Below are positions 12,213 to 55,589 of a stretch of 64,000 nucleotides of DNA, one piece after another; position 1 is the stretch's first letter; each line of letters opens with the position of its first letter. A model generated the notes under the pieces. It worked only from the letters and a program-made list of their open reading frames with translations. It was not told the DNA's origin and searched no databases. Position numbers and translations under genes: made by a program. This stretch comes from Galaxea fascicularis (taxonomy: Eukaryota; Cnidaria; Anthozoa; Scleractinia; Euphylliidae), in assembly GCA_948470475.1 (NCBI GenBank), contig OX419342.1, positions 1,562,201-1,626,200 of the forward strand. The letters are read 5' to 3'.

Positions 12213-12213
<1 letters not shown>

Positions 12214-12246
<33 letters not shown>

Positions 12247-12285
12247 GATACCGGTGCAATGCTCTACCAACTGAGCTATGAAGCC
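12214..12285 (-). tRNA. tRNA-like gene, apparent anticodon GGT (Thr), copy 1
   Basis: The 72-nt cloverleaf has a perfect 7-bp acceptor stem (GGCTTCA/TGAAGCC), a D-arm GCTC-AGTTGGTA-GAGC, and a T-arm ACGGG-TTCGAAT-CCCGT. The anticodon arm is weak: stem TTGCA/CGCGG with two G-T pairs and one mismatch, and loop CCGGTAT, giving GGT with C at position 33 instead of the near-universal T. A six-T polymerase III terminator follows within a small hairpin (CCTGATTTTTTCAGG). The arms look selected but the anticodon arm does not, so a tRNA-derived repeat or non-decoding tRNA-like RNA is as likely as a working tRNA. Confidence 0.6.
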
Positions 12286-12461: not shown

Positions 12462-12462
<1 letters not shown>

Positions 12463-12495
<33 letters not shown>

Positions 12496-12534
12496 GATAC
12501 CGGTGCAATGCTCTACCAACTGAGCTATGAAGCC
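12463..12534 (-). tRNA. tRNA-like gene, apparent anticodon GGT (Thr), copy 2
   Basis: Identical in sequence to the copy at 12214-12285, including the odd anticodon loop and the T-run terminator; placed 249 bp away in the same orientation. Confidence 0.6.
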
Positions 12535-26316: not shown

Positions 26317-29300
26317 ATGAGTGCGGAATTTCGACGCAATCCCGTTGATCGACGATTGAGAAGGCGACAGACCGAAGATTATCATCAAAGGGTAGGCTTA
26401 TTTAACGTTATAAAATCTGGTTTGGAATTCATTACGATTCTAATTTTTGCTAATTTTAATATCGACGTACTTTGTATCAGAAATGCTTACGTGGTTTCAC
26501 TCAGTTTCCAAAGCGTGCATCAGCTGTTAGTTAACTTGAAATAACGTGGTTTGAACTCTCGGCAAACGTGTCGTGATGCGATCAATATAGGACTCGCACG
26601 TAATCATATCGATCATACATTATCAAGGAAAGCCGGCGACAAATCAGAAATGTAAAACAATGACAGTTGAACGTAACGATGTGCGTCAATGTACATTAAA
26701 TGTACCATTCGCTTCCTTCTTTCTGCTGACTTTCCTGTGATTTTATTTCATTTACTGGGTTTCTTTGCTGTGTGTCGGCCGAAATATATAAACTTCAAAT
26801 CTGTGATGAAAGCTGAAATATTCACCTTGTGTAAACAGATTATTCCCAAGGGAAATCAGACCTGAAATTGACTTCACGAGATTCTTTGACCTAATTTTAT
26901 CGATATTTACATAAACTAAAGTTTACGAAAGGCAATACATGGCAACGGAAATTGAAAAGACAGCATGTTTTTTTGTCCTATTTTCTAGCTGCAAAATGTC
27001 AAGCCTTTTCTTGATATAACTCCTCCAAGAGAACATCACCACCTCCAACTATCTGTCAAGAAAATCCAGGTGAGAAACTTCATTCCAAATCACGGTTTAT
27101 TTGAAACAGTTCCGTCTTTCTTCATATTGTTTTATCCTCTCATTCTATTTACTCGATTTCCACTGGTTTGATGTGTAGATGCAGCAAGAAAGACAAGCAG
27201 CAATTGATAGACAGAATCAAGTGATTCTTTCAGCACTTATGAAAATCAAACAGTCTCCTGCAAGAGTGGACAACTGGAATAAAGATTGGAAACCAAGGTT
27301 TTTACTGATGTATTCTAAGTTATTTCAGCTGTTCTCTCATCATGGTATGCCTTTTGGTGTACTGGCTGAAAGGCTACTGACTGTCCTATTAAATGGTGAA
27401 TTCCAGGTTGAGTGGCTGACTAACTGAATGACTTACTTGTTGTGTGGTGGACCGACTGATTGCCAGTCTGATTGATACACTCACTGATTGGATAAATGCC
27501 TTTCTACATGTAACTGACTGACTGTCTGTCTGACTGACAGACTGCCTGCCTGCCTGCCTCACTGACTGACTGACTGACTGAAAAACCAGATGGACTGACT
27601 GATAGACCAGTCCTACACACTGACCGTAACTGGCTGAGTTACAGATGGACAGCTTGTCTGACTCATTGACTCATTGACTGACCAAGTAAGTAAACACTGA
27701 ATGAAGGTAAATGGCTGACAGATTGACAAGGTTGACTGTCTGACTGTCAGCTTGGCAGGATCACTGATAACAGACTCATCTTCCTGAACTTCAACAGACA
27801 TTCCTAGTCAACTGTAGGAATTACAGTGAAAGGCATATTGGCAATGAAAAGCACAGTGTTTTCCTTTTTAAAACCTCTGTTTGTTAAATTTTAGTGATGA
27901 TAGGCTGAAAAGCTTCCGGGACAGAAAACAGAGAAGAATAAAGCTAGAAAATGAGGTATAATCTACTACTCTGCAATTGGGTCTTTGGATACAGAACAGC
28001 TTTCATAAACTAACCGCATACACAGTGTTGTATCTAGGGTTTATAATAATTTTTCAATTCAAACAAAGGATCTGATGGCATGATAGCCACTACAGCGGTT
28101 GTACAATTGTAATGGGAGTTGGCTAACTCAATCCAGTGAATAACCTGACTTTGGTGATTGGATGACATTCACTTTTGTCGAAATATTTTTGCTATTAAAA
28201 TAGCAATAGTACAAATTGGTGCCCTTGGGGCCCAACGGCACTAATGCGCTTGCGCTTTTGTTTTATTTGAATTCGTCGAAAACTTCCGCGTTTAGGTTCT
28301 CGTAGACAGCGTGCAGACGTTTCCGGTTTTGCACTCAAAAGAAGTAGGAGACGTCTGCACGCAAGCTAGGTTCCCGTGTCGCACTCGCAAATCAAATGGT
28401 TTAACTCAGTTTTTTCGTAGAGTCTAGATCCGAGTAGAAGTATTTGGAATAACCGAGAAATCATCAATGATTCATGAGACCCCTCGCTGTTTAAGTTGAT
28501 TTGTAGTGAGCCATAAGTTTGTTTCTTGCAGATGTCTCGGGTCCTTGCTGTAGCTGATTGCTTAATTAATCTCTGTTTGTTGGTCTTTCATTCCGCAGAA
28601 ACAACGCGAACGACTGAAAAACATTCAGCCATATTATGACGTGGACGAATGGGTAAGAATTTCTTTTGGCCAAGCGATATAGATTATGTGGTCTTTGACT
28701 GAATTTAATGATAATGAATTATAATCATCATCATATATGTATTAGAGTTTTTTGGAACATACTTCAGTCTTCTACATTGGAAGCCCTCGCGCTCTGTAGT
28801 CTGTTCTGGTTTGAACTGAAGTAATGAGATGACTCAGTGTTAAGTCATTATAGCTTAAAACTGTATCGCACACGGGCACCAATGAACTAATCAGAGATGC
28901 TGGGTTCCTCCACAAAATGTACCGAAATAAACGATTTATGAAATAACACTTATGATTCGAGAGTAAACGCGGTTTTCATCCCTCTCTAGGTTTAACTGAG
29001 TATCGGTATAGGTGGTTTTCACGTTACGTAATCGCCGTCATGCTGATGGACGGTAAACAATACATCTCTCATTAGCTCGTTTTGTTCGTCCACCAGCATT
29101 TGTACATTTCACCATTGTTATCTGTGTCTCTAGAGATTGGCTGCAAACCACCTATGTGGGTTTCTGGTACGATATCGGCCATGACTCTTCCGAATGGAAC
29201 AACTAACCTTTGCAAGCAAGTGCCGCCCAGTATAAAAATAAAAATGTTTTGAACACCCTTTCCTTTTTGCTAGGAAAAAGATTACAAAAAGCACCAGTAC

Positions 29301-32300
29301 TACTTGTGGATGTTGGACGGAGGAACAAAAGATTACGACGAATTCGAAGATGAGGACGAGGAGAAGGTAAAGAAAAGTTCGTGTAACGAATTGGTTCATT
29401 GACTGATAAAAATAATGACAAAAGCCAGGCCATCTCAACAATTTGGAATTTTAAAAACCCAAAATTATTGGTTTAATTCAACGGTTTTTAGCAGCTCATT
29501 GCTCATGACTACCTCAAACTATTTAAGCGGTCAGTATAAATTTAAATTCTTAGAAAATTCACAAAAACTTATTATAGTATGTTCTCCCTTTGCCAAAATC
29601 ACGTGATCCTTTTCCTCTTGGTGTATATACTAAGATGATGCATTTTATAATGTGTGGGAAAAAATAGTTCGTTTAAATTTCAGTACAGTACAGTGGAGGC
29701 CCAAAAGCTCACAATTGCTCATTAGACTAGCACCTTTAAATTATGTTCGTGTCCGTATGAAATGATTTAATCAATCGAGGTTAGCATTATATTTCCGAAC
29801 TTTAAAGCCTCTTCCCAAAACTTCCGCAGTCGTTCTTTTGCATAATTTTTTTTCATTTTCGATTGATCAAGAATATGGTTGCAGACAAACTATGAGGGAA
29901 CATTTATTCTTTGTCCAGAGTAAATCTTGAATGTCATTGTGTGGAGAACGTTCAGTTTTTCTGACAAAATATTACTCTTCGAATTTCTTAGGAAGACGAC
30001 AGTGAAGAGGAAACACTTCCTTCTGTGGTAAGTTTAAGATAAAACTAGGAGAAAATATGAAGGCGATCGTACGCAATTGTTTTTTCAGTCTACTTCTGGT
30101 AACAGAATGAGTGGAATCAATTTTTTTGGTGGGGGTGGGGGTGGGGGTGGGGAAGGTTTTGGTTGGAAAATCATGCGCGGCCCGCCAAGTCACTGATATG
30201 TCATGCACTTCCCAAAATGTCTTTAACTTAATGAACAGCACCACAAGGAAGGGCCCCTATAATGTATTCATTTATTTCACTAGTTAAGGAACCACTTGAG
30301 ACATTGCAATAATAGGGAGTTTAAGAAACGAGGACGGCGGCGGCAACGAGAACGTTATTTAAGAATAGGTGGTTTGCAGCCAATCTCTTGAGACAGAGAT
30401 AACAATGGTCAAATGTACAAATGCTGGTGGACGAACAAAACGAATGAATGAGAGATCTATTGTTTACCGTCCACCAGCATGGCGGCGATGACGTAACGTG
30501 AAAATCACCTATACAACTTCTCGTTTTTGTAACTCTTTCGCCACCATTCCAATTTGTTTAACTTGGAAAATGGTGGAGAACTCTCCAGGAACCAAGTTAC
30601 TATGAACGACGTCAAAGTAAGGAAAAATAAGGAAAATTTTGCCGTCATACTCTCACGTTCTCGAGAAAACCTAAAATTTGGTCCTTTTACGTTGTTGTTT
30701 TACGGAGGACGGCAAGGAAATGTACCAAAATGTAAAACGCACATGCAGAGCGATTGTTTTTTATCATTAAGCCTATTGTTTAGTGGCGTTCTCATTGCCG
30801 TCGCCCTCCTCGTCGTTCTCCCTAATGGGCAACATATGATGAAAGTACCACGTGCTCACTAGCTTTCTTTTGAGGGGTCTTGATCACTGACTCACTCGAA
30901 AAGCTTTACTGGCTCTATACAGCGCAATAAACAGTAGTTCAGTCAAGAACTCCTCAATAGCTTCTAACTGAATGTTCTTTATTAACGATTTCGTGCACGG
31001 AGTTGAAAATAGAAACTACGTTTTACAACATCATATTGCAGACAACACCACAGGAAAGCAAGTTTTGGATTTCATTTGAATTGTCCTTCTTGAAAGTTTA
31101 AAGTTAAGCCCCGATTGATGACACCAATGTGTTTTTTTAATACTTTGAAAATGAGAGTTTCTTACAATCTAATTACTTGTTTGGTGCTTCGGAAAAGCTG
31201 ATAATCATTTGTTTTATTCTAGGAAAGCCCGGAGCCTGTAGTCAAAAAGAAAAAAGAGGAAACCATGAAACTGCCGCCAATTGACGGCAAAAAGAAGAAA
31301 GACGGTGGTAAAAAGAAAGATGATTACCCTGAACATGGTGTTATCATGGATGCTGAAGACATCAACAAAGCTATAGAAGGTAACAAGAGACTCAATTCGC
31401 TCATTTTGTCGCTCGGCATTTCTAACCGGTGTTATAGAACAATAATGATACTCCTCCCTGTACGCTTTTCAGCTGAGACTGCTTGTCTTCAGTTGATTTC
31501 GGCGAGGAACTGAAAGCTCTTTATGATTTATTTCTTTCCTTCTCTTTTTAATGGCAATCGCAACATCAAGAGGGTTTTATAACTAAGGTGACGATTCTAT
31601 AACTAAACCAGTCGCTGAGTTTTTTCTTTCAATATCCGTAGAAAACGACAAAGAGAAGATTCTTGAAATCCTTGGAAGAGTTTCTGAAAAGAAGAAGTTG
31701 GATAAATTAAAAGCGAAGTACAAAGAACTTTACGACAAGGTAATGATCGGCAAGATAGCTCGTTTAAAAACACGCTTAAACGTAGAATTTGATGTAAATA
31801 GCTTGGTACATTTATTTTTTAATTAGGATATTCCAAATTTTAATTGTTTTAAATTTTTATCTATTTTTAAATAGCGTTTTTTAACTTTTTAAATACACGA
31901 CCACATCAGCTCCACTGTAATTTTTATCGTGTTTAAATAAATGTTGTTGTTGTTGTTGATCTGTTGGAATGCAAGCGCATGCTTGTTTGTTCGTTTGAAG
32001 TTCTGTTTAAATCCCACTACAAACATCCATCCCTCCATCTTTCCGTCTGTTCCTCGATTTTCCTTTCTTCGTTCCTTTCTCCTTTCTCTTATTCACCTTT
32101 TCTCCGACTTCAGGATTTAATGGAGGAAGTCAAACCTAAACTCGACGAAGGCGTGCAAGAGGCTTTAGATTCCCTCGGCTCTGGGGCCGAAGAGGACGCT
32201 AAAAAACTTTACGAAGCGATGAAGGTAAGGCTGTCTTTGCGACTTCAGTGAAGCGTTCTTGTCTTGCCAACACCCTTTATTAGACACGGTCTGACAGTCC

Positions 32301-35300
32301 TACACATCTGTCTGTACTTTTTTTACAGGGGCTGGGTACTGATGAAGACATCTTGATAGAAATTTTGTGCACAAGAACAAACGCGGTAAGTTTGCTCATT
32401 TATCTTTTCAGTCAACGGTAGGTGTAGGCATCTGTTGGCAAAAAGGTCGTTGAAAAGTATAGTAGTTTATTAACAAATGTGTCTTCTCTTCTCAGGAGCT
32501 AAAAGATATTCGGGCAGCCTATAACAAAAGTAAGATTTGTTTTTACTGTTCACAAGCTATTCTGATTTCTGAGTGAAGAGTGATCAAAGTATTCGTTTCA
32601 ATATGCATCAATTTTTTTTTTTGAAAGTTTAACATTTTGTTTACTCTTTGTTTACTCTTCTACAATATCTTAATTTCTTGACTTAATCTATTAGATTTAT
32701 TCAGATTTATTCATTCATTACTATGACATTACAAAGTAAACGAAATGAAATAAATAGCCACCCGAATGTAGCAAAGCTAATCGAGTCGGGTGGTTTCAGA
32801 TAATATTAAAATACAACAAGAAAGTTGGAAATGAAAATTACAAAGAAATTACAATATTATTAATTTTGAAAAGTGAAATCGATTCAAACAAATATATGAT
32901 TACAAGTAACAACGACGCAAATAAAATAAGTTAAAGTACGTATAGTTTACAGGAATTTCAGTATTAATGTAAATAAATAAATATGGAAGGTGCTATTTTA
33001 GTTCCATAAATCCAGCAGTCATTCCAGCAACAATGTTTTTTTTAGAGTCATACTTGTTTTCATTATTGAGTAATTTTAACAAAAGTGCATGGACGTTTTT
33101 GTTAAAAGACCTTTTAGGCAAGGAGCGCAAGCTACGTGGAAAATTATTCCAAACTTTAGGCCCAAGTCTTGAAAATGAAGAAAGTTGTTGATTAAGCCTT
33201 GATTTGTTGACATGATAATTACCAGCATTAGAAAATCTTGTATTATATGAGTGGATTTCCTGAGATTGAGTAAAGAGATTGATATTTTAGAAGGTGTAAT
33301 GCCAGATGATACATCATGCATTTGGGCAGCCACAGTTTTAAGGTACAACATATTAACCGGTAAAATATTTGCAGAAATAAATAGCGGTATAGTATGAGCT
33401 CTGTATTCCAATCATTTAATTTCCACGAAGAGACAATTTTGGGCGTACAGTTTTCTCAATTTTCATTCTGTTTTTGCTAGAATATGACAGCTCACTGGAG
33501 TCAGACCTCAAAGGAGACACAAGCGGTGACTTAGAGGCATTACTAGTGGAGTTAAGCAAGGTATAGAACCAATTCAAGGATTCAGGATTAATCAGAAAAA
33601 CTGACAGCTGCTTCATGCGTTAGTTACAAGTCAAAAAGACGTTTTCCACCAACGAATTCCAATGAACGATGTTTTATATGTGTAGGGTCAAAGAGATGAA
33701 TCTACAGAAGTTGACAAGGAGCTTGCCAAGACGGACGCCAAGGATCTTATGAAGGTAAACATATTTAGGTTACCAGTTACAGTTATTTAAATTCATAAGT
33801 AAGCTTATTATATTAGCCCTTTAGCTTTTCATGACTCTCAAATTTGCTTTCATTAGAGAACCTTTTCGCTCAAATTCTAGGCGGGTGTGGCCAGCTGGGG
33901 GACTGACGAAGGCAAGTTCATTCATATATTCACTCAGAGAAGCAAACCGCAGCTTGGTGCGACATTTCCAGAATACAAAAAAGTGAGTGCATGTGGCCTA
34001 CAGAGTAAATGTTGAGGCCGGTTGCCCGGTAATACTAATGAGCATTTAAATATAGAAATATAGAAATTTGTTACAGACGATGATGTTTTAAGGCTTACTT
34101 TCCTGTCCTGCTCAAATTTTGCAGCTGACCAAAAAAGATATCGCAGACTCAATTGACAGTGAGATGGACGGAGACCTTCAAAAAGCGTTTTTAACCTTAG
34201 GTAAATACTACACATGATTCTTCAATGTGTGCATGCATAGGTGGGGTAGATTTCTGGCTTGATGTAAATAAGGTAAGGTACTGACGGCTTTGAGCCACTA
34301 CGTTAGCGCCCCCCCCTCCCCCTAAGGGGTATGGTTAATATGTAAATATGCGTATAGATTTTAGCTATTTCTTCCTGGAGATTTTAGAGGCCGCGAATAC
34401 TTAAAACGAATACTGGATTTCTAGAGCCGGGAAGCAAACGTGGTGGGCGTTAGCACTGCATCCCGAAAACAGGTGCACCTGAATCGAGTTTCGTGCACGC
34501 CCACGCCATGCGGGATTAGCTAGCCCCCCCCCCCCCACCCCAAAAAAAAAAAAAGCGAATATCGTCGCCCCCTCTTCCCATACAATATGCAAATTTTCAG
34601 TAATACGTCGTCAAACTTTAATACGTGGCAAAACTCGCCTTTGAACAATGAATGTAACTTTGTTATTTTGTCAGTTAAATGCGTACGTGATCCAACGGGC
34701 TTCCACTCAGACAAACTCCATGAAGCTCTTCAAGATGGTGACACGAAAACTGTGGCTCGAATTATTCTTAACAAGAATAAGGTAAATTATATGAATCAAC
34801 CTTTGTGTATTACATAACCTTCCTTTTTCTGTTCCAGCATGAGAATCTGACGAGTCTTGTGTTTACCGCTAATTTTAAGATACATTTCATTTTCATTTGC
34901 AGGCAAAACCAAATATTGTTTAAAACGATTTCAACAAGACCCTTGAAGCACATCAGGGTATTCTAAGAACAGTGCAAAGCATTACTCCGCTGACTACTTA
35001 TCTCTGTTTTCGTAGGCGCAGCTGAATGAGTTGGTTACAGCGTACAAAAAAGCTCATAAAACAGAACTCGCAGATGAAATTGAGAAGAAATGCAGCGGGG
35101 ATTTGAAAACGCTTATGCTTTCAAAGTTAGGCAAGAAAGGTAACAACCACGAGATCAATAAACATTGTGCAACGATTCAGGTCAACTTCTTTCTTTAAAT
35201 TGACAGCACCAAACGTTTTTTTTTTTAAGGCAAAGAGAAGGAAATACCAAAGAAACAGCAGAAGGTACTTGACAATGAATTGTATACAGGTTATTGTAAT

Positions 35301-38300
35301 ATTACTGTACAGTAGCTTCAGCGTTGCCCAGACGTTGATGAAAAGTACTGGGAAACGCCAGTTTAATGAAAGTAAACATCCTATAATTTTGTGCGCGCAA
35401 TGCACAATTCTGTCAGGTAATGAAGCCGAAAAGCATTGACGTGGTTGTAATTTACAGTAACTAATCTATTCTTTCAGCCGGCTGAGAAACCCGCTGGCAA
35501 GACGAAGAAAGACGCAGCTAAAGAGAAAGCGAAACCTAAAGCAGGAGCGGCAGCGGGTCAGGATAAAAACGCGGAGAAGAAAAAGAAAGAAGAAGAAGAA
35601 ACTGCTCTGGAGAAAGACGTCGATGAACTGCATAAATCAGTTGAAGGTAAACGGAGGATTCCTAACATTTGTATTTTCTTTTTTTTTTTTTTTTTTTTGT
35701 AGTGAGTTATGATTCCAATGTTCACTGGTCAAGTCACGAAGTTAAGGTCCCTGCAACACCAAGAAATTAATGTTGGAGGTGTTACAGGGAATTTTTTGGC
35801 CACTTTTCTCTTTGCTTTTTCTGTAAGAAGTCGACATTGATCATTCGAACCGTTTGTACCTCGGTTAACTCTGTAAATAATTCTATTCTCTCAGGTGAAA
35901 ACAAGGCGCAGATTATTGAAATATTAGCAAAGAACTGTTCGGATAGATCCAAGTTAAAGAAGCTGCAAGACAAGTACAGGAAAAAACATGATAAGGTAAG
36001 ACAACGTTTCATAAATTTCTTCTTTACCTGCCCCCCCCCCGCCCCCACCCCCACCTTCCTTCTCAGAGGCATCTTCTGTTACTTTCCCCCATATTTTCCC
36101 CCCTTTTCCCCGTCTCTTTCTCTCTATTCTGGCCTACCCCAGTAACAAGACGTTCACTTCCTCTCCCTGGTGAACGCATGCAGTGCTCTCGTGAAATCTT
36201 TGTAGGATATTTGACATGGCGCCCTTGTTCGTATGGTTTCCCACCAATTGAGTGAGAGGGAATGGTACCTAGGTAAGGGTATATGTGTCAGTCCGTGGTG
36301 GTCGTCATTTTTTGTACGAGAGTTATTTTCTTGTCAAGAACTGGGTAAATTAATTCGCACCCTTTATGAGACAATGGCCACTCTAAAGAGTGGCTGGCAT
36401 ACAAGCAATGCCTGCTGTCTGGATAAAGTAGGGTGCTATTCATCGCATTGACAGGAAACTTCCATTTTATCAGATAAATTCTCTCTTTACAGGACTTGCT
36501 TGAGGTCATAAAACCCATCCTAGATGAGGATTTACAAGAGGCAGTGGAATCCCTGTTAATGGAGACCACCTTTCATGATGCGAAGAGTCTCTACATTGCT
36601 ATGAAGGTAAGATAACAATCCTCAAACTATTATGACATTGCCACTGGCAGTTCATCTTGAATTTACGGAATACTGAGTGACATCTATTTCTCTCTCTTTT
36701 GTAACTAAGTGCTTGTGTATTTGTGTTTTCTGCAGGGTTTGGGTACAGATGAAGACGCGTTAATTGAAATTCTTTGTACAAGAAACAACTCTGTAAGTAT
36801 AATGACAGAGACAATGACACAGTGAAGTCTTTAATTCGGTTATTCTTCAATAAATTGATTTTATTTTCCCCTCTCTTCACAGCAACTGAAAGAAATCAAC
36901 TCAGCTTACAGCAAAAGTAAGAGCACCATTCATCGATCTTTTGTTTTTCTCTGCGACTGTTTTATCCTGATTCTTGTTTGACATATGCCTATTTATTTCC
37001 CAGTGTATGAGACTTCGTTGGAGTCGGACCTGAGAGGAGACACAAGTGGGGATTTTGAAAACTTGCTAGTGGCGCTCAGTAAGGTATGGCTCCTCTGAAA
37101 ATTACGAAACACATGTTTGACGAAAACGGTCGAAAAAGAAAGCTTAATGAAGGAAGGACTTTAAAAAAAAAGGAAAAATCGTAAGACTTTCATTTTTACC
37201 TATTCTGCTGAAACATTTGTAACTCATATTCGAGAAATCGGATTAAATGATGTTACACGGCTACATGTTACGTTTAACGACAGTTTGCAGGAAAATTTGC
37301 GTATTTTACTTATCTTTTTCTGATTAGAAACTGTTATGGTTATCATTACTGTTGTTATCATATATTAGTGTCAAAAGAAATTAACAATAACAGATAATTT
37401 TCAGGGGTAAAAACAGTCATCACTTTTTGTTAGGGTCAGAGAGATGAGTCCACCAAAGTCGATCAGGAAATGGCGAAAAACGACGCCAAGGAGTTACAAG
37501 AGGTTTGAAATTATAGTTAAAAGTGATTTTATGAGCCTATAAAACTCATTGAAAAAACACGAATTGTGGTGTGATACAACTGACACTTAACAGTTTTTGT
37601 GTGTGCTTCTGTCCTGCACCATAGTCAAACACGCACAACAACCAATTGGCTAAATAAGATATACTTATGTAGTGTGTTTTTTCCTTAGGCTGGTGTTGCT
37701 AGCTGGGGGACCGATGAAGGCAAGTTCATTCGCATCTTCACGCAGAGAAGCAGACCACAACTTAGTGCAACATTTCCAGAGTACAAAAAGGTAATTACGT
37801 TCTTAGAAGTTATGATTTTCCTGCCAATAATCAGTGTTTCGTCGTGAATCTCGTAGGTTTGGCAGATAAAGCTTAACCTCCCAGAAAATCTGTTTTCGTG
37901 TGTTAATCATTTTTCTGCACATTATAAAAGTCATAGTTTTGTTTTTCATTTTTTCAGTTGACCAATAAAGACATCATTGACTCGATTGATGCCGAGATGG
38001 ATGGTGATATGCAGAAAGCATTTCTGACCCTGGGTATGATAAATTCTTAGAATATAAGCTTATTATAATTTAACTGCAGTGATCGAACTTTCCCAGAATT
38101 GACCTCTGTTAAAGAGTCGCTTCTGCATTCCAGTGATGAAACTTAATGTTATGTTACTTTCCATTCAAGTTAAGTGCAGCCGAGATCCAACTAGCTTCCG
38201 CTTGGAAAAACTTCAAAAAGCGTTGAAAGAAAAAGATACTAAGGCTGTTGCGTCAATCATTCTCACAAAAAATAAGGTGAGTTGAGACCAGTTGATGTCA

Positions 38301-44300: not shown

Positions 44301-47300
44301 AAAGTAATAACAGATAGAGGATTGCTTATGATCACCGATTGCAAAAGGCCACGTCACGAGCGCCGGTGCTATTTCCAGTTGGACAAAAATTGGCAAAAAA
44401 CCCGAGTGGATCGTTAAAGACATTTTCCATGTGTCCAGGCCTGTAGTGAAGAGTGTACTAATTCAGACCGAGAAAATAAATCAGGGGAACTTTTTCTTTG
44501 GTAGGATGAGTTAGCGGATGTCATAGGAGGATACAAAGCACTGTACAAAAAAGATCTCAGCAAAGAGGCTGAAGCCAAGTTTAGTGAAAACATGAAGAAA
44601 CTCGTTCTTCCCAGGCTACAAAAAGGTAAGCATACAGCTGATGCCACGTGCTCGAAAATGAACTACCGATTGCAAGCGCGCGAACTTGTCAAGCTGTTGA
44701 AAGTTAGAAGCCTGGTGCCAAGCCAGCATCGAAAAAATAGACGGGTGCAACAAGCGACTCGTTAAAAGCGCGGGGGAACACGAGCAATTGTTTCTTATTG
44801 GTTTATTATTTCTTGTTGATGGCCCAATGAGTGACGTATCGTTTGTTTTTGTTTAATCACAGGAAGCCAGCAACAGAAAGAAAAGGTTGGTATTTACGTT
44901 AGGTGCTTGTACAGTAGTTATTTAAAGTGAAGGAAATCTGTGCTGCTAATAAGCTAAGCATCAGTAATACAATTGGGGGGCGGTGGCTTTCCTTGTTTCT
45001 ATCTACTTGTTGCTTTCTTGTTTGCTTGCTTGACTGACTGACTGACTGACTGACTGACTGACTGATTGATTGATTGATTGACTGATTGAATGAATGAATG
45101 AATGATTGATTGATTGACTGATTGTGATTGATTAGGAAAAAGCCAGTAATGGAAGTAAGAAGGGCGTGGCTGGTGGAAAACAAAATGGCGCTGCTGGGAA
45201 GAAAGCAGACGCAAGACGGACTGCTACCAGAAAGGCGTCCAAACCTCCCCGGAAAAACCAACCGCAAGACGATAATCTAGAATATTCTGAGCTACGAGAG
45301 GCAATTGATGGTAGGTTCTGCGTCTTTATGAAATGTTCACAATCACAAGGTACAATTGGTGCTTTTAAGTTCGATGAGGTTTTTGAAATGTGTGTCTGTT
45401 TTGGTGATTTATCATCTTTCCTTTTCCTTCCCAAGCTAACAACCAAAAGAAAATAAAGGAGATTGTATGTAGGAGCCTAGAGAAGAAGGAGAAGGCCAAG
45501 AAACTTGTCGACAACTATAATTCGAGATATGGCAAGGTGACTATTTGTATCCTGTGTGTTCGTACTCTCTTACATATGGTATACGGAACAATAAGCAAAA
45601 ACCAACTGCGGTTGCGCGAACACAACTTGCCATTATCTTTAATTATTCTTTCTCCCTTGTCCCTTTAGGAATTGTTTGAATCCTTGGACGACAAACTGGA
45701 CGAAGACCTCATTGAGGCGTTAGCTGCCTTGTCCTTGACCAAAGCTCAATATGATGCAAGAACGTTGTACGTAGCGATGAAGGTGGGCCTCTCTTTTAGC
45801 ATTTTATCATATCGTATAACATTATTGTACTATTTCTAGCAGAGTGGGTTTTTTATGAACGTTCTGAAGTGTAAAATGGTGTGCTTTCAGGCAGGTGATA
45901 TTTTTAATGCTTTCGTTTTAATTCCTGACCACATGCTTGAACAATATATAGCTGTATTTACACAACTAGCAGTGAATTCAAGTTCTTGGTTCATTTTCAG
46001 GGTCTCTTTACCAAAGAGCTGATATTGATTGAAACATTATCAATAAGAACGAACGCTGTAAGTGAACAACAACATTAAGTCTATATCAAACCTGACTTAG
46101 ATGAAATACCTTGTCTTCTTTTGTTATTACAACAGGCACTTCATAATATATTTTTTCTTTAATTTATTTCTTCAGGAAATCGCGGCCATTAGACAAGCTT
46201 ACAAGAAAAGTAAGCCAAGTATTTTGTTGGTCTCGTTTCTTGGTACAAAAGATCATTTGATAGTTTCAAGTGTCATAATATTCTCGAGCGAATATGATTC
46301 ATCCGGAGCCAATTGGAAAACTTAGAATCTTCTCAGTCGCGCCTGACGCAACGAATAAGTTTTATGCGAAGAATGGATTAAATGAAGCAACCTCGTTCCC
46401 AGTGTGTCTCTTCTTCCTGTCCCCTGGAGGACGGAAAGAAGAGAGCCCCTGGGAACGAGGTTGTAAAGGAAGCAGTGATGTGATTTCTTACTGTTGTCAT
46501 TGACTTTATTTAGAGTATAGAAAAGAACTGGTAGAAGTCATCAAGGATGATACGAGCGGAGATTTTGAGACTTTACTCGTTGAACTATGCAAGGTTTGTG
46601 TTTGAAACAGAATAATGCCGTTTCTGAACAAAATCCTTTGTAGCATGCACAGTCATATTTCTCGCAATTTACTCCGTTTTCCTCTATTAAATGTTTTTTC
46701 CACCTTTTAGTTTAAGAGCATTTCGAGACAGAGAAAGTGCGTGAAAGCATATAATGCACATCTATCACCGAAACAGCAATATGTGTGCCAGTTATGTTAC
46801 AATATTTCCTCCCCGCGAATTCATAGGTCCGCTTCCTGTTGAAAGGGTTTTAACTTGGTAACGTTCATAATTCTTTCCGTGTCAGGGTCAGCGAGACGAA
46901 ACTGGAGAGGTGAACAGCGACTTGGTGCATAAAGACGCCGAATCTCTGTTGGAGGTGAGAACAACAAATAAGACAATACTGTCAGCACGTTAGCTGTTAG
47001 CTAAGGGCCGGGGACCGGGGATTTTCCTCTCGTATTTTGAGGTATATCCCCGGCTACTTTGATATAAAACCAGCATGTTGACTTCACTACAGAAACTCGA
47101 ATCCTCGGCTATTTTTTGTATATCCCCACCTACTTCAAAAATCAGTGACAGCCCTGTAACTTGACCAGACTTTACTGGTAAGAAAGAAATATCATAGTAG
47201 AATGTACTTTTTTTTTTAATTCATCCGTATCCCCGAAATTGGTAGAGGTAAATTGTCACCTTCGGATGAGTGGATTTTCTCAAACCTTTGTTAGCTTGTC

Positions 47301-50300
47301 TGTTTTCAGAGTTTTGCTACGCAGCAACTTTGGTTCCAAAGATATCATTGATTCTTTTTGCACAATATTTCTTGAAGGAAATAATTATTCCGAGTGGCTT
47401 GTTCGTTTTTGTAAACATCATACGAGTGACGGAATTTCCCATGACTATTTTCTTTCTTCAGGCTGGCATAAAGAAATGGGGAACGGATGAAGAGACATTT
47501 ATCGAGATTTTCACAACCCGCAGCTTCGCCTGGTTGAGGGCTATGCTTCCTGAGTACAAAAAGGTATTTTTATGCAAGAAATAACTGTGGGTGTTGGTTA
47601 CCTTGACCCCTGACTGTACATGCTTTGAATCAAAGTCGTAACAAGAACGAGGTATATGGTATCAGGGATCGCAGCCTCGGGATCTGGGATCACAGCCCCG
47701 GACCTGGATCACAGATCAGCAATTTTAGTGAGATCAGTGATCAGAATTTTTGGCCAAAAAACGGGATCACTGACGAAAAATATACCTCGTTATCCATTGT
47801 TTTGCACATTCACTGTCGTTAATTTATTGTAGTTGGCCAATTGTGAGATGGAGGAGACGATCGATTCCGAGATGTCAGGTGACCTACGGCTAGGATTGCA
47901 GACTCTTGTCAAGTGCATCAGAAACGAGAAGCAATTCCTCGCGGACAAACTTCAAGTATCCCTTAATGGAAAAGACACGAAAACCGCCACAAGGATTATT
48001 CTTGGAGAGGTGAAATTTAAATTGTTTTAATGCTAGGGAATGTAATGTGTTTTCTTGCTTTACCAAAGAAGACGTCTAACCTCTATATCTTACGTAACGT
48101 AAATTCCAATGACAATAATGATGATGACGATGACGATGACAATGACGGAGGTGATGACGACGGTGTTAGTGGCGTTGACGTGGGTCGTTGACCACGACGG
48201 CGACAACGATGATGATGATGATGATGATGGTGGTGGTGATCCGCTTAGAGTAACTTAACCAGCCTCTCTCATTAGGTAGTGATTGACGGAAATTCTTTCT
48301 TCACTTTAGAGTAACATTGCAGAAATTGAGAAGGCCTACAACGCGATCCATAAACCGAAACTCGCTGCTGAAGTTGACAAGAAATGTAGCAATGAGCTGA
48401 AGATAGTTCTTTTACCAAAATTAAAAGGTATAAAATAAAGTAGATCCATTTTAGGTCAATTCAATTATCACAAGAGAAGAACGAGGTTTTGGTTTCCAGT
48501 TAAAAGCACCCGTTTGACTGAAATCGTGACAGGTTTTAGCTAATTTTAAGGATGTATGCTGAGGTATTTTACCATGGGTCTAACCTCAGATGCACTTGAG
48601 CCATGCCTTCAGCTGATATTTATCAGCGTCTCGAATTTTTGATATCTTATGTACATGTGTACAGTAAGTTATTATCTGTGTATGTTTCCTTTTATTTAAC
48701 TGTTGTCACACGACTTTGTAAATATAAGTTTATTTGTACTTATGGAAAGAGTGCAGGCTCTTGTAGGGACCTGCATATGTGCACACTGGGTAAGCGGAAG
48801 TTAGATGGGCCCTACTTCCAACGCCGTACCCTAAGCGTCCTATCTTTTACGTGTTTGTTGAAAAAATGTATTATACATCAGGCTCTTTCGTGCTTAGTTC
48901 TAAGGATTTGGCTATGCCTTCGTTAAAACTGTCAAACGAAACTGACGTAGACGCCGCACCGTAGCGAAATGTTTTCTCTTTCCTTAGTACGGCGTCTAGA
49001 AGGTACGGAGTCAAAATTAGCCTGGTCCGAAGTACGCTGACATTCTTTGTTAGCGCCCTATAAATGTGGCACCTATTTTCTTGTGTTGCACTTAATTGTT
49101 TGTAACGATATTGATAATTGTACATAATTTCACTTTGTTTCACCTTGTAAAGAATGAGCACTTTTAAGTTATTCTCCGTAAGCACCTTGTAAAAATATAC
49201 AAATGCACGTTGTGACAACGTAACTGCACTTGTTGGTGTTGCACTTAATTGTCTGTTTTACCCGTAGTTGTAGATAATTTGTAGCGATAAATGGACTTTG
49301 ATCTACACATTACCAGACTATAACTCGAAAGGTCACCGTTGACTGCTCCGAATAAGATATTCGACTTTCGTTGAGATCCATATGGTAAACACAATAAGAA
49401 GATAGCCTCTAGGCAACCGCCATAACTAAACCGTCGCCTTCAGTTGTTTTACTAGCAAGATCTTCAAATTCGGATCGGATATTCATTCTCATTAATGTAT
49501 GACATTGAACTGACATTGAGGTCCAAAGGGAGGTCTTGGCTTTTGACTAAACTAAAACAGGGCAAACCATGGAAGCGAGGGGGGGGGGTGGGGGCGAAGT
49601 TTATTGAAAACACTTCAAAGCTAGAATTGGAGGAAACAGGGTCGGAATCGCCTACATAATTAAGAGAAAATGGTGAGACTGAGGGCAGAAAAAATCAACC
49701 GGAGAGGATGCTGAGAACGACACAAAGGAAACACCCCAACTTTTCTCCTGGTCACGTTCTTGATTCCCCCACCCCACCCCATCTGAGGCAGAACTTTGCC
49801 CCTTTTACTGCTGCGTACATTTGAAGATTCTCGCCAGAAAGAAGAGGGAACTGTTCAACGCCATTCACGGCAGTGATCATGCTTATCGGCTTCCATATAC
49901 ACACCTCGCTGTTATCACTGCTTTCTTTTGTTCTCTTTGCTTATTAAAATAAAAATAAAAATCAGCGACAGCAATGTTGAATAACGTTTCGGAGACTCCA
50001 TGTCAATTTTCAAATTCATATAAGACCGATTGTGCAGGTATTTTATATAATGAAATACTTCCTAAAATTTAGTTGCATAGTTTATGATTAAACAGTACAG
50101 CGTGGCGTACAAAGTCTCACACTGGAGTCATCGAAACGTCATTTAACCGAGTGCTACCCATGATTTTTTTACAGTACAACTCCGATAATACGACCACCGC
50201 CGGGCCATGAAAATTTGGTCGTATTAACGGGCTGGTCCCGAGGATTAACGGAGTTTACAAATAAGGAAATAAGTGGGATTTTCTTGCTCGGGCCGCAAAA

Positions 50301-53300
50301 AAAGTTTTCGTAATAACGTGGTGGTTGTATGGTGGGGTTCCACTGTATTGTACGGTTATTATTTGCTATTGTCACATAAAACCACTAATATGATGCCAAA
50401 CGAATATGTCCGCCATATTGAAGAAGGTATCATTCAAAAATTACCCCGGTCGGATGCTAACCGGACGCGCCTTAGTTTCCTAAAGGTTCTTATCCTTCAC
50501 ATAACCTTTTAGTTTGGTACCGAAAAAGCAATGAAAAATCGGCTTTTTTATCATACCTCCCGCATTATTTTATTTCTATTTCACAGCCCGCCGCGGTTAC
50601 CACTCTCCTTTTCCGGTTCCCTCTCACCCCCCCCCCCCCTTCATTTTCCCCGAGGGTGCTACTATCGCCTCTCCTCACCTCACCCCACCCCCTACCTAAA
50701 CTTTACTGAGAATGATGATAGCCTAATGTTCAAATATTTATCTGCAGACACAGAAGAAAATAAAGAACCAAAGAAGGTAAAAAAAGAGCTCTTTCAACAG
50801 TATATCATGAAGATACTGTTGACTATTACTAAGCTCATCTCCCGCAAATCTCCAGATTTACTTGACATGCCCTTGTCTGGCCTGGTTGTTCATAGTGACG
50901 TAAAACCTCAGATCTTGCTGGGATCAGCTGTTATCTTGTTATTCCCGATGGTCCCATCAATCACATCAATCCGGGTCAAACTAAAATGAAGCACCCGACA
51001 TGATCAGACAAATCAAGGTTTGTTGAGTGAAGCCAAGAGCCACTTTACCCCTCCAAATTTCTGTTGAGTATATTCCAGGAGCAAAGAGGAAATTCACAAC
51101 TCACGGTGAATACGATTTTGACACGGAATTATCACTGAAGTTCTGCGTCGATATTTAATGCATTATTCTCTATCAGGAGGAACCTTCTGAGAGCAAACCG
51201 GAAGAAAAGCCAGCCGAAGAGAAACCGGAAGAGAAGCCTGCTGAGAACAACGAGATTTCGGCTTCTGATTACAATTCAGAACCAGCTGAAAAACAAAGAG
51301 AAAATGATGAAGAGTCTGACGAAAAACAAAAGGAAGAGAGACCAGCGTTGAGTATCAAAAAGGTTATAGCAAAGTTAAAACGTCGTTGATTTAACGCGTT
51401 CGATAAACTGAGTACATTCACATAAGCAAAGGCTGTGATTCTAGGAGAGATGATGTTACTCATTCAAGTATTTGTGTTTGTTCCCAGGTCGAATACCACG
51501 GTACCTTGAAGCCAGCGGAGAACTTCAATCCAACAGAAGACGCCGAGACATTGAAGAAAGCGATGAAGGGTTTCGGTAAAAAGCAAAACGCTTCACTTCT
51601 TATTCAAGTCCATTCTCTCCCTATACAGCTGCGCTAATCCTGCCCGAAAGCCTTCAAATTTAATTTCAAAATAGCTCTATGTATGCATAAGACATGACTT
51701 TTTTTCTTTGAAACAGAAAACTGTTAGGCCTGGTTCACGTAAACTTCTTTTCCCGTGCTTACGACTCAACCTCGTTCCCAGGGTCTCTCCTCCTCCCAGG
51801 GGACGGGAAGAGGAGAGACCCTGGGAACGAGGTTGCTTACGACTACGCCTGCGCCTTTGTCCTAATTCTTGTGCTTGGGACCACAACCCACAATACAAGA
51901 GTGTAGCCATAATATATATAGCAAAGGAAAACTCTAATACACACAATGGCTATTTGCAAAAGGTACATACATTCACCCTTTGATCACGAAACTGAAATGA
52001 AGACATATTCACTCCGCTTCCTTTCACAGGCAGTGATGAGGATACCATAATGGGAGTTCTAGGATCGCGTACCAATCAACAGCGACAAGAAATCGCCGCC
52101 AAGTTTGAACAAGAGTATGGCAAGGTGAGTTCACAGTACAACCTTACCACTCTTTCTCTATTGATGTCTTTCATAGTGATTTTATTTTCCCCCTCTCCCC
52201 TCCCCAACCTTACTTACCAGTATGCGTTTTAAGCTTCCTTAGCTGGCACCGAAGGGGGAGGGGAAGGGGCGATTCATGAGATTCCATGCGCCACCGCTCC
52301 CCTCTCCCCTTATTTGCTATTTATGCTATCTTAGAGATCCCCTTGTCTGGTCTTTTTATTCATTTTGGACCAAAAGGCCGAAAAATGTGAAGCAGATCAT
52401 CGCGATCATTACTGTTGTTGTCTCTATCCCAAAATATAACGAAGCCGCTGTACACAACTTTTAACCAGTTTATGAAAGGACAGACTCTCATGTTGCTTTA
52501 ATTTTAAAATAGCATCTTATGATCCCCTGCCTGCGTTTGCCTTACAGAGTCTTGTTGAAGAGTTGAAGTCGGAGCTTGGTGGCAAGTTTGAAGACGCCAT
52601 AATAGCTATGATGTCCTCACCTGAGGTATACGACGCTAATTCACTCCATGACGCCATGTCGGTGAGTTCAAATTACAGCGTAAGGTGCATTACGATCCAC
52701 GGGTCACACTGTGGGTGGCAATATCTCAGTTCTGGTTTTCAATTTGTCCAGTCACATTCATGTTTCCAATGTCAGCAGGACATTTTAGAAAACGTCATAC
52801 TTTTGATGAAAAACTACAATCTAGATAGGAAAATAGGTTTGTTGAGAAATGGAAAACTTTATCTTTCTGTTCAATTCAGGTTTTTTAAAGCTGAGCTCGC
52901 GATGATTTTTACTTTAATTAGTGTGTTCACTCCCTGTATTCATAACGCGTTTTCTGTTATATATGCTATAGGGACTAGGAACCAATGAAGCAGTGCTGAT
53001 AGAGATTTTGTGTTCCCGTAGTTCAGAGGTAAGAGTTACGTCCTGCTCTCTTTACCAGTTTTCAGCAAAGCTTTTGTGTTCGCTTTGTACTGTACCCAGT
53101 TGCACCCACGAACGCTTGGCGAGAAAAAACATATTGCGACGCGCGTAACGTTCTTCTTGGTTGCTGTCACTTTAATCTGTTACTGTTCAAGTTTTCTCTG
53201 TTTAACGGTGGTAAATAAAAGAACTTTTTTCTTTCGTTACAGGAAATTCAATCGATTAAAGCCGCTTTTAAACAAGGTAAGCTGCTTTCGTTTTTAACTC

Positions 53301-55589
53301 TTCTTCTTTTTCAGTGTGTCGCTTTTATTTATTTAATTTGTTTCCCTACTGTTAAATTTCTCGATTTCGTTCCATACGTGATTCTCACTTTGTTTAGTTA
53401 AACAGTTTGTCAGTTGAAGTATTTTAGCGCACGATTCTCAATCTAATTACACTTTTCATTTCATAGCGCACGAGAAAGATCTCGTGGAGGAAATAAGGAG
53501 CGAAACAAGTGGGGATCTGCAAAACACTCTAATCAAACTGGCAGAGGTAATGATTACTGACTAATACACGCAAAGTACTACAGTGGTTTTCAAATCAGTG
53601 TCGTAAAACCAAAGCCAAAGCAATTACTGTGGCCAATCACAGGAGACGCAGACAGCTCAGTGAACCAATCAGAATTTGAAGTAATTACATGCAACCGGTG
53701 CAAAGCGCGGGAAAATGCGCGCTTGCAACTTGAAATTAGTTTTGGTTCTGCTTCTCATTGGCTGAGAAAGTGGCGCGAGTTTTGTCAACCAATCACAGAG
53801 CGAAGTAAAGCAAAACTAAAGCAAACGCGACTGATTAGTTCGACACTCAATTGAAGACCGCTCTATGAGCCCTCTTGCGTTCATTACCACAACGTCTCAC
53901 CGTACTCTCGATAACAATCAGGTATGGTACTCCACACTCATTTTCTTCCATTATATTTCACAGGGAACACGAAGTACCTCGGAAAAAGTCGACGAGAATC
54001 AGGCTTACAAAGATGCCACAAAACTTTTTGAGGTCAGAAATTTAAAACATTGAAAATGAGAGTTACTGCTGTTGAGACTATCATCAGGGTTTTCGAGAAG
54101 TTAAATGTTTTTTATTATCTCCCACTCCAGGCTGGTGAAAAGGAAAAATGGGGAACAGATGAGTCCGTATTTGTAAATATTCTCACAAACAGAAGCACTT
54201 CACAATTACAGGCAACGTTTGAGGCGTACAAACACGTAAGTATATTGGAATATAATTACAGCAATTAGACCCGAACCGCAGTAGTAAACTTGGACTTAAA
54301 ACATGTTTGTCCAACTCTCAACATATTCATTTGCCTTTACCGCTTCAGGTTGCTAAGAAAGACATAATGGATTCGATCAATGACGAGCTCACTGGGGATT
54401 TCCATGACTCCATCGAAGCAATAGGTAATGCATAAACTAGCTACTTAGCATCATAGTAGCTGAAGAAAATGAAAGTCCCCCCCCCCACCTTTTTTTTCTT
54501 CTGTGGTTGGGGTCATCTTACAGATCTCAGAAGTTTCGTTAATGAAGCTCATGGTTCAATAAAGACGAATGAACTTTTAACTTTGTTTGATTGTAGCAGA
54601 TTGCCGATGGCCGATTGCCACTATCGCCAAAAACCGCGATCTCAAATGTCAAATCCCTTTCTATCTCAAATAGGAACTTGTAGCATATTATCATTAACTG
54701 TGTTAGACCCTGCTTTCTGGCTTTAAAGAAGCTTTATTAGAGATTGTGGAAAACATTGAAAGGAACCGCCCCTGAGTTAAAGTAATTTCTACTGCAATTT
54801 CATGTGCCTGAAATGTTTGTTTGTAGTTCGATGTACGCGGAACCCTCCTCTGTACTTTGCTGAAGTGCTGGAGAATGCATTGAGTGGAATAACCGCTGAC
54901 AGCAAAGACGTCGCTCGTGTCATCATAACGAGATCAGAGGTACATTGAACGTAAAGTGCACGGCAAATTGAATACATATGATTTAACTTTACACTGAATT
55001 TAGAGAGCTGGGTGCACAATGATTTCATTAGAGTCCCGCTAACTGTCTTTAAAGAGTCAGTTTTGCATTGTAACAGCCTATCACCTAGTCCCCTTATGCG
55101 TTTGTTTGTGTGTTTTCGCGCAAAGCCTGAAACTGGAGCCATCGCTGGCAGCGCAAGATCTACGGTGGAAGCGGAAGAAAAACTTTGTTACGCGATGAAG
55201 ATACGCCGTAATATCAATGTCACTAGAACCAATGCTTTTAAACGCTCAAGGAATGCAAAGTGAGTAGGCAATAGATTCCTGCTGTTGATTCCGGCGTAGT
55301 CATAGTAAGTGGATGTTTCGCTGGTGGCAGTCGGATAAAGAGGTTCTAGTTAGGGAAATAACTACCTGGGAGTTCAGGTCGGAAAATCAAATGGGGCGCC
55401 TAATTCTATTTGAAAGGCAGTAGTCTAGAAATCATGGGCTGTTAATGTCTTGTCTATGTATTTCAGGTTGATCTTGCTGAGATAAAAACTGAATACCAAA
55501 AGAAGACAGGCGTATCTCTAAAACAAGCGATAGAGGACAACTTGAAAGGAGACCTTGAAAAGCTTCTCCTACAGATGATTGGAAACTAG
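26317..55589 (+). CDS. Giant Hemingway/CFAP97-annexin fusion: five annexin cores (20 repeats), ~66 exons, ~1,952 aa
   Basis: One continuous in-phase exon chain. Residues ~26-130 form a Hemingway/CFAP97-like region (ITPPREHHHLQLSVKKIQ, then ERQAAIDRQN and RVDNWN). Residues ~131-213 are acidic then Lys-rich. Five annexin cores follow, at about 214-511, 565-866, 913-1213, 1268-1563 and 1636-1952, joined by Lys/Glu/Ala-rich linkers. Each core has four ~70-residue repeats in normal annexin order, with GLGTDE-type type II calcium loops mostly in repeats 2 and 3. Annexins bind acidic phospholipids in a calcium-dependent way; Hemingway proteins act in cilia and flagella. Vertebrate annexins have one core, except A6 with two. 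No internal stop, promoter-like break or phase clash was found, so a single protein is the simplest reading; separate genes cannot be excluded without RNA. There is no signal peptide. Closest by eye to annexins A7/A11 (GQRDEST motif). Confidence 0.88.
27415..27735. repeat. CTGA-rich tetranucleotide microsatellite, intron
   Basis: A long worn array of ACTG/CTGA units, cleanest near 27555-27600. Confidence 0.85.
29008..29155. mobile_element. MITE, copy 1 of an inverted intronic pair
   Basis: Begins ATAGGTGGTTTTCACGTTACG and ends TGCAAACCACCTATG. It is the near-perfect reverse complement of 30365-30513. Confidence 0.85.
30365..30513. mobile_element. MITE, copy 2 of an inverted intronic pair
   Basis: Reverse complement of the copy at 29008-29155; together they bracket the two acidic exons at 29274-29366 and 29992-30027. 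Confidence 0.85.
31223..35264 (+). other. Annexin core A
   Basis: Exons: 31223-31379, 31642-31739, 32114-32224, 32329-32385, 32496-32529, 33481-33560, 33686-33754, 33881-33982, 34125-34200, 34675-34781, 35016-35139, 35230-35264. Repeat 1 (from DAEDINKAIEEN) has lost the G.GTDE loop; repeat 2 has GLGTDEDILIEILCTRTN; repeat 3 has WGTDEGKFIHIFTQRS; repeat 4 (ALQDGDTKTVARIIL) is loop-less. A Lys-rich segment (KKKKDGGKKK) precedes it. The intron at 32530-33480 holds a LINE relic. Confidence 0.9.
32690..33415 (-). pseudogene. LINE (CR1/L2-like) reverse transcriptase C-terminus, dead relic
   Basis: On the minus strand from about 33411 a frame reads AHTIPLFISANILPVNMLYL. A shift near 33250 leads to a second frame with SRLGPKVWNNFPRSLRSLP, ending at a stop at 32993. 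This order (Y/HT.PLF..L.IL....Y, then RLGPK.WN) is typical of the last part of CR1/L2-type reverse transcriptases. A UTR with a CCACCCGA/TCGGGTGG hairpin (about 32758-32793) and a GAATAAATCT-type tail follow. It is 5'-truncated and lies antisense in an annexin intron. Confidence 0.75.
35478..38923 (+). other. Annexin core B
   Basis: Exons: 35478-35646, 35895-35995, 36493-36606, 36736-36792, 36883-36916, 37004-37083, 37434-37502, 37689-37790, 37958-38033, 38170-38276, 38590-38710, 38895-38923. The first exon encodes the linker (KEKAKPKAGAAAGQ) and the start of repeat 1. Loops: repeat 1 lost (ENKAQIIEIL), repeat 2 GLGTDEDALIEIL, repeat 3 WGTDEGKFIRIF, repeat 4 lost. Confidence 0.9.
40032..41540 (+). 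CDS. Penelope-like reverse transcriptase with GIY-YIG endonuclease
   Basis: 502 residues from the first Met; the real protein starts upstream and is missing. RT features: FYGLPKIHK, RPIVSFVNSPTY, the FDVVSLFTKIPVD segment (motif A region), GTAMGSPVSAVIANMVME (motif B) and the catalytic YVDDV (motif C) near residue 202, followed by FLDLNVYR. The C-terminal GIY-YIG nuclease shows YSIPCNDCDHEYIGQTKRQ and TRLKEH, with the cysteine pair common in this class. No stops or frameshifts interrupt the remaining frame, suggesting a fairly young insertion. This element family copies itself using target-primed reverse transcription. Confidence 0.9.
   Translation: MLLDLKKAGKISESTYKMLYSSDGLCPRFYGLPKIHKTGIPLRPIVSFVNSPTYAVSSYLAKILSPVVGNTDYTVKNSCDFADFIRGKTLDAGNELVSFDVVSLFTKIPVDLAISVAEKRLKQDASLGQRTSLPVEDLIDLLFFCLNTTQFAYNGTYYQQVFGTAMGSPVSAVIANMVMEDVEQRALVSSPIQPLFWKRYVDDVISAVSGNEAERLLSHLNSVEPSIQFTIERENDRRLSFLDLNVYRAHRGNLETSVYRKPTHTDKYLAFDSHHPICHKKSVTRTLLTRADCLPSSCDSRAKERKYVFDVLKVNGYPNTFLRNCLKPVTPSPNTSGDEVSATGFAVIPYIRGVTEPIKRVLSSHNVKVAQKPFQTLSHIFAKPKDPVLKEQRIDAVYSIPCNDCDHEYIGQTKRQLGTRLKEHQKAVFLCKKENSALSEHACQTNHTIAWDNSKIITTNRRYHQRLCLEAWHINSAHAPLNRDDGGLLPDTYLHLIKTKGR
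41570..41635 (+). ncRNA. Hammerhead ribozyme of the Penelope-like element
   Basis: Core CTGATGA at 41587-41593, a perfect six-pair stem II (GACACT/AGTGTC) with a seven-base loop, then GAAAC, a short stem III region and a GTC triplet. TCAC before the core can pair with GTGA after GTC as stem I. All conserved core bases are present, and hammerheads are established in Penelope-like elements. Confidence 0.8.
43251..43620. repeat. ACTG tetranucleotide microsatellite, intron
   Basis: A long array of GACT units, with embedded AACT and GGCT runs. Confidence 0.9.
45031..45134. repeat. GACT/GATT tetranucleotide microsatellite, intron
   Basis: A run of GACT, then GATT, GAAT and GATT units, ending right beside the acceptor of exon 45136. 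Confidence 0.9.
46388..46463. mobile_element. Short palindromic element with 9-bp near-perfect target duplication
   Basis: Ends CAACCTCGTTCCCAG and its complement; flanked by TAAATGAAG (46379-46387) and TAAAGGAAG (46464-46472). Same family as 51767-51834. Confidence 0.75.
48110..48241. repeat. GATGAC/GATGAT microsatellite, intron
   Basis: Degenerate run of GATGAC and GGTGATGAC words ending in a clean GAT run. Confidence 0.85.
48428..50747. other. Long annexin intron between core D and the core E linker
   Basis: At 2.3 kb this is the longest intron between annexin cores. It contains a TA-flanked MITE (50171-50347) and homopolymer C/G tracts; no coding signal. If the gene were really two, a second promoter would be most likely here. 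Confidence 0.6.
50171..50347. mobile_element. Tc1/mariner-type MITE, copy 1
   Basis: Starts TACAGTACAACTCCGATAAT and ends GGTGGGGTTCCACTGTA, with TA at both edges. Homologous to 61949-62139 along its length. Confidence 0.75.
51767..51834. mobile_element. 68-bp palindromic element with perfect 10-bp target duplication
   Basis: A nearly perfect hairpin opening CAACCTCGTTCCCAGGGTC. GCTTACGACT flanks it on both sides (51757-51766 and 51835-51844). The duplication length is that of Mutator-type elements. Confidence 0.85.
53581..53862. mobile_element. Palindromic MITE in an annexin intron
   Basis: Left end CAGTGGTTTTCAAATCAGTG and right end, inverted, AGCGGTCTTCAATTGAGTG; inner parts repeat AACCAATCA-type words in both orientations. 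Confidence 0.65.

Follow-up and report, generated by a model that had tools for sequence, protein, structure and literature searches.

In the presence of calcium, annexin cores bind to acidic phospholipids, and annexins act mostly at the plasma membrane and on vesicles. The single-core animal annexins, such as A3, A4, A5 and annexin XII, have one core per chain, whereas annexin A6 (PDB 1m9i, 1avc) has two in a chain of 672-673 residues. Alpha-giardins, the flagella-associated annexins of Giardia, are individual proteins of one core each and lack a CFAP97 domain; as annexin-fold proteins at flagella they are the nearest functional analogue we can name for the protein described below. CFAP97-family proteins have been linked to axoneme integrity and assembly (PMC10425847, PMC7444823). 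As described in these and related papers, fly CFAP97D1 is located at the ciliary dilation and axonemes break when it is lost, and no evident Hemingway signal was seen in mature fly sperm (PMC10425847); loss of mouse Cfap97d1 frequently leaves sperm without doublet 4 (PMC7444823); and CFAP97 is found in human respiratory cilia (PMC12310455). The word "annexin" is absent from the main texts of these three papers, and a narrow literature search gave no title on an annexin-CFAP97 fusion among the papers listed.

Here, we report a gene of the coral Galaxea fascicularis whose predicted product carries five annexin cores behind an N-terminal CFAP97/Hemingway domain. The gene lies in a 64,000-nucleotide stretch of contig OX419342.1, hereafter the window, and all positions refer to it. 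Sequence reading of positions 26001-58000 and scripted joining of exons rebuilt a model of 66 exons on the + strand, 26317-55589 (Table 1). The coding sequence of 5,859 nt encodes 1,952 amino acids (predicted mass 221 kDa), with its sole in-frame stop as the last codon; all 65 introns have GT-AG borders and the frame is intact across all 65 junctions. An in-frame stop at 26290 lies 27 nt 5′ of the model's ATG, and an AATAAA at 56291 lies 3′ of its stop codon. When the model was searched against the window by tblastn (E up to 0.01), the 112 matches touched 60 of the 66 exons and none fell beyond the model's exons; the six untouched exons (7, 31, 43, 48, 54 and 60) are each 23-36 nt long. An additional exon in 55127-55260, considered by eye, was rejected, the exon 65-66 junction being in phase and repeat 4 being complete without it. 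The initial annotation, which had proposed 66 exons in one frame of about 1,952 residues with every linker exon in phase, agrees with this rebuild in span, exon number and unbroken frame, and the linker coordinates it gave (35139-35478, 38710-39134, 44625-45136 and 48427-51488) coincide exactly with the rebuilt exon borders.

Table 1. Exon groups of the predicted Galaxea fascicularis annexin-CFAP97 gene, in window positions; residue numbers are those of the 1,952-residue translation, and shuffles are dinucleotide-preserving.
Feature	Position	Strand	Content
Exons 1-6, residues 1-161	26317..29366	+	CFAP97/Hemingway domain (exons 1-5), then acidic tail
Exon 7, 36-nt micro-exon, from CFAP97 part to annexin array	29992..30027	+	Phase 0 at both ends
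Exons 8-18	31223..35139	+	Basic linker (174-207) and annexin core 1 (208-511)
Exon 19, linker 1 micro-exon, 35 nt	35230..35264	+	0/100 shuffles reach its score
Exons 20-30	35478..38710	+	Remaining basic linker 1 (512-565 including exon 19) and core 2 (566-865)
Exon 31, linker 2 micro-exon, 29 nt	38895..38923	+	0/100 shuffles reach its score
Exons 32-42	39134..44625	+	Remaining basic linker 2 (866-913) and core 3 (914-1213)
Exon 43, linker 3 micro-exon, 23 nt	44863..44885	+	1/100 shuffles reach its score
Exons 44-53	45136..48427	+	Remaining basic linker 3 (1214-1265) and core 4 (1266-1563)
Exon 54, linker 4 micro-exon, 29 nt	50748..50776	+	3/100 shuffles reach its score
Exon 55, acidic linker 4 (1564-1635 with exon 54)	51177..51362	+	
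Exons 56-66	51488..55589	+	Complete canonical annexin core 5 (1636-1952) and stop codon

Several other features were seen in the window. A sulfotransferase-like frame lies at 4695-5678 (+; PF00685, E 2.6e-7), and a 397-residue frame at 13117-14310 (-) has, by eye, the look of a multi-pass membrane protein and matches no Pfam family above cut-off. Two tRNA genes of equal score at 12213-12285 and 12462-12534 (-) sit inside a 249-bp tandem duplication with 100% matches. Minisatellites at 270-724 and 3623-4652, with units of 67 bp and 65 bp, respectively, have by eye a common motif in opposite orientation. Within intron 33 of the annexin gene, positions 39876-41540 (+) hold an open frame of 554 amino acids with two sub-threshold Pfam matches (reverse transcriptase RVT_1, E 1.2e-5; GIY-YIG, E 0.013); it looks like an inserted Penelope-like retroelement, and tblastn of this frame against phages gave no match.

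Pfam found 20 annexin stretches in the full-length translation (PF00191, 912.3 bits, E 2.1e-282, cut-off 25), arranged as five four-repeat cores, as had been counted by reading the letters. The CFAP97-family domain (PF13879) was detected within the same translation. Seven other Pfam families were listed for the full-length protein, of which Myb_DNA-bind_7 was the sole one above its cut-off (43.4 bits, cut-off 31); its best stretch lies over repeat 2 of core 1, and we take it, like the best stretch of IF-2 (under cut-off) over the annexin repeats of core 1, as a putative cross-match. For core 1 as for core 5, the top-scoring solved match is annexin A6, which, like the Galaxea protein, has more than one annexin core per chain; it has two cores and the Galaxea chain five, together with a CFAP97 domain. 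Among the solved matches listed for core 1 and core 5 (the best 60 of 77 and of 78), no chain is longer than annexin A6. Core 5 aligns nearly full length with the single-core animal annexins; the match to annexin III (E 2e-83), for example, spans residues 3-316 of 317. A pattern search of viral contigs matched 28 stretches, of which one was confirmed: a 565-residue frame (1537-3234 of an IMG/VR contig, L001) carries, close to its C-terminus, a single annexin-like stretch, KGLGTDEEVVYSVL. We rejected this viral relative as a multi-core annexin, as it holds a single KGLGTDEE-like stretch in 565 residues.

The five cores are related to each other to different degrees. Identity is 66% between cores 1 and 2, 44-49% in the other pairs among cores 1-4, and 30-38% between core 5 and each other core. 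From core to core, exon lengths and phases recur with little change (about 101, 114, 57, 34, 80, 69, 102, 76, 107 and 121 nt); in core 4 the 76- and 107-nt exons are fused (177 nt), and the start of core 5 coincides with an exon border of its own. When each repeat of cores 1-4 was compared with the repeats of core 5, the best partner was the same-numbered repeat for 15 of 16, the exception being repeat 1 of core 2; several of these pairings were won narrowly, some by 3-5 points. Since same-numbered repeats pair best across cores, we infer that the array grew by duplication of whole four-repeat cores, not of single repeats.

For all ten core pairs the proportion of synonymous differences is saturated (pS 0.79-0.88) and that of nonsynonymous differences is much lower (pN 0.21-0.45). 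Because synonymous sites are saturated while protein change is limited, the annexin array is, by this measure, old and selectively maintained, and a recent duplication or an assembly error is unlikely; a duplication artefact of the assembly was also rejected on the finding that the cores differ by 34-70% in protein. At the DNA level, blastn among the genomic core blocks gave 11 matches, nine of which overlap exons by coordinates. The two others are one intronic inverted repeat of cores 4 and 5, an element of about 75 nt at 46385-46463 and 51767-51838 (introns 48 and 56; converted coordinates) that matches in both orientations. The architecture, the repeat count, the calcium-motif pattern considered below, and the age and constraint of the array are all read from the nucleotide and protein sequence itself.

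In the N-terminal part, the Hmw_CFAP97 domain (PF13879) covers residues 24-118, encoded by exons 1-5, with E 4.1e-15 and 56.8 bits (cut-off 25.6) when the N-terminal 173 residues are scored alone; profile positions 3-99 of 100 are covered. Among solved structures the N-terminus matches CFAP97D1 (8otz_Z, E 1e-13; 9v10_Aa, E 3.1e-13), CFAP97 (8snb_4T, E 7.6e-13; 9e78, E 3.6e-7) and a KIAA1430 homologue (9e2g, E 3.6e-11); a sixth match, at E 0.3, is unrelated. We take the matched CFAP97-family chains to be entries of axonemal doublets. The domain is thus in common with CFAP97, CFAP97D1 and Hemingway, but the five solved chains have only 158-231 residues (CFAP97D1, 164), which leaves no room for annexin cores. 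The initial annotation had read the gene as annexin only: the cores it described stand, whereas the CFAP97/Hemingway domain in front of them had been overlooked, and the gene is a chimera.

The length of exons 1-6 (161 residues) is close to that of the solved CFAP97-family chains and raises the question of whether a short CFAP97-family gene stands head to tail with a separate annexin array, with exons 7 and 8 not joining them. The methionines at 188 and 215 in exon 8 would offer possible starts for such an array, and, among the five micro-exons, exon 7 is the one least well separated from its shuffles (7/100). Against this, the acceptor of exon 8 ranks 62 of 65 from the weakest, and no equally strong AG exists elsewhere in intron 7; the donors of exons 6 and 7 rank 52 and 29 of 65 (matrices for these ranks were trained on all sites), and exons 6, 7 and 8 are all joined in phase 0. 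As the exon 8 acceptor is strong, the annexin array looks spliced to an upstream exon rather than beginning with a first exon, and we regard two head-to-tail genes as highly improbable.

The linkers between the cores bear on whether the array itself is one gene. Each of linkers 1-4 has a micro-exon entered in phase 1 and left in phase 0, followed by a linker exon entered in phase 0; in linkers 1-3 this exon (20, 32, 44) continues into the core, whereas in linker 4 exon 55 ends in phase 0 before the core. Linkers 1-3 are basic (pI 9.7, 9.7 and 11.2) and linker 4 is acidic (pI 4.5). Methionine was sought in all four linkers and none was found, in keeping with the earlier statement that no linker looks like a fresh N-terminus. 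Of the linker peptides, only those of linkers 1 and 2 resemble each other clearly (2/500 shuffles); the other nine linker pairs tested were reached by 40 to 487 of 500 shuffles. Each of the micro-exons 7, 19, 31, 43 and 54 is the top in-frame AG..GT candidate within its own gap, and 7, 0, 0, 1 and 3 of 100 dinucleotide-preserving shuffles, respectively, matched their scores; the five exons had been left out when the splice matrices were trained. Against one gene stand the limited similarity of the linker peptides and the weak acceptors of exons 32, 30 and 44 (ranks 4, 7 and 9 of 65 from the weakest). Five adjacent annexin genes were rejected as an explanation: the linkers have no methionine, the micro-exons exceed the shuffles, and the last exons of cores 1-4 (18, 30, 42 and 53) end in donors with no earlier stop.

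A more specific division would have the CFAP97 part and cores 1-4 end after exon 53, with core 5 as a separate or alternative-promoter unit started in intron 53, and we consider this unlikely. Intron 53 is the longest of the gene (2,320 nt); reading through exon 53 gives a TAA at 48436, 9 nt past the donor, with an AATAAA at offset 7, a possible alternative end behind core 4. The open frame that holds exon 54 extends back to an in-frame ATG at 50531, a possible alternative start. The canonical character of core 5 and its low identity to the other cores, the acidic linker 4 and the early end of exon 55 are in line with such a division. The donor of exon 53 is nevertheless fair (rank 42/65), exon 54 is the top in-frame micro-exon of its gap, the leader from the ATG at 50531 is low-complexity-like by eye, and linker 4 has the layout of phase-1 micro-exon and phase-0 linker exon found in linkers 1-3. 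The reading of one gene, already favored in the initial annotation, is the best one and is supported by the in-phase junctions, the repeated exon structure, the methionine-free linkers and the micro-exons that stand above shuffles. The predicted architecture of one gene with a CFAP97 domain and five annexin cores is, in our judgment, well supported, and a continuous single transcript over all cores is predicted. Directly downstream and tail to tail with the annexin gene, an open frame at 57466-58776 (-) matches XK-related proteins (PF09815, E 3.4e-33), which include lipid scramblases; its position beside an annexin gene is probably due to chance.

Calcium sites were read as type II motifs, defined as a GxG[TS] loop (in repeat 3 also SWGT, KWGT or YLGT) with D or E exactly 38 residues on. 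The motif, which is in common with the single-core animal annexins, is kept in 10 of the 20 repeats: repeat 2 in every core but core 4, repeat 3 in every core, and repeat 1 in core 5 alone. Of these, repeat 3 of core 3 is doubtful, as its YLGT loop is two residues shorter. In core 4, repeat 2 has GLFT at the loop but retains the acidic residue, and repeat 4 of core 5 reads GITAD; no core has the motif in repeat 4. The tryptophan of the repeat-3 loop, which annexin A5 likewise has, is retained in cores 1, 2, 4 and 5. Unlike the single-core animal annexins, cores 1-4 have no calcium loop in repeats 1 and 4, a feature that the initial annotation, correct as to the five cores, had not reported. 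This half-silenced pattern of predicted motifs is common to cores 1-4, whose calcium binding may be weak, given the lost loops of repeats 1 and 4, the damaged repeat 2 of core 4 and the doubtful repeat 3 of core 3.

With the calcium loop gone from half of the 20 repeats, one might suppose that the annexin cores are structural spacers of an axoneme lattice that bind neither calcium nor membranes. Ten repeats do keep [xx]G[TS] and an acidic residue at a spacing of 38, four of the five repeat-3 loops keep their tryptophan, and protein change between the cores is limited; we find spacers a rather unlikely explanation.

We consider the best explanation, which we hold with about even confidence, to be an axoneme-anchored, calcium-dependent, multivalent membrane tether encoded by one old chimeric gene. 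Most likely, the CFAP97 domain would hold the protein to the axoneme of cilia or flagella by docking on its microtubule doublets, and the five annexin discs, carried on charged linkers, would be presented to the ciliary membrane. Upon a rise in calcium the discs would bind acidic membrane lipids, with motifs mostly in repeats 2 and 3, and the result would be a multivalent, calcium-dependent bridge from the axoneme to the ciliary membrane. Ciliary location, doublet docking, calcium binding and membrane tethering are what we infer by analogy with related proteins; please note that the location of a domain in other proteins does not prove the location of the Galaxea protein, and the finding on Hemingway in mature fly sperm counts against a ciliary site. 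A product of the same single gene could also work outside the cilium, if its CFAP97 domain were a module for microtubules or scaffolds in general and its annexin array organised vesicle, nematocyst or plasma membranes. The usual sites of annexin action would suit this idea, the basic linkers (pI 9.7-11.2) could bind other acidic partners, and vertebrate CFAP97 has been called essentially ubiquitous (PMC10425847) and its interaction with CDC16 described (PMC12310455). The CFAP97-family functions described in those accounts nevertheless concern cilia, flagella and the centrosome-cilium interface (PMC7444823, PMC10425847, PMC12310455), and a non-ciliary role appears doubtful to us.

Taking the axonemal tether one step further, we tentatively propose, at less than even confidence, that the protein represents an unrecognised ciliary class in which CFAP97 docking and five annexin discs couple doublets to the membrane under calcium, with cores 1-4 specialised for one-sided binding via repeats 2 and 3. 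To our knowledge, little is understood of how ciliary calcium is converted into mechanics between membrane and axoneme. If our reading is true, axonemal docking and up to ten annexin calcium motifs in one protein would make a direct, testable candidate for this step, relevant to sperm flagella or, in a cnidarian, to the sensory cilium of the stinging cell, and the known annexin architecture would be widened from two cores to five.
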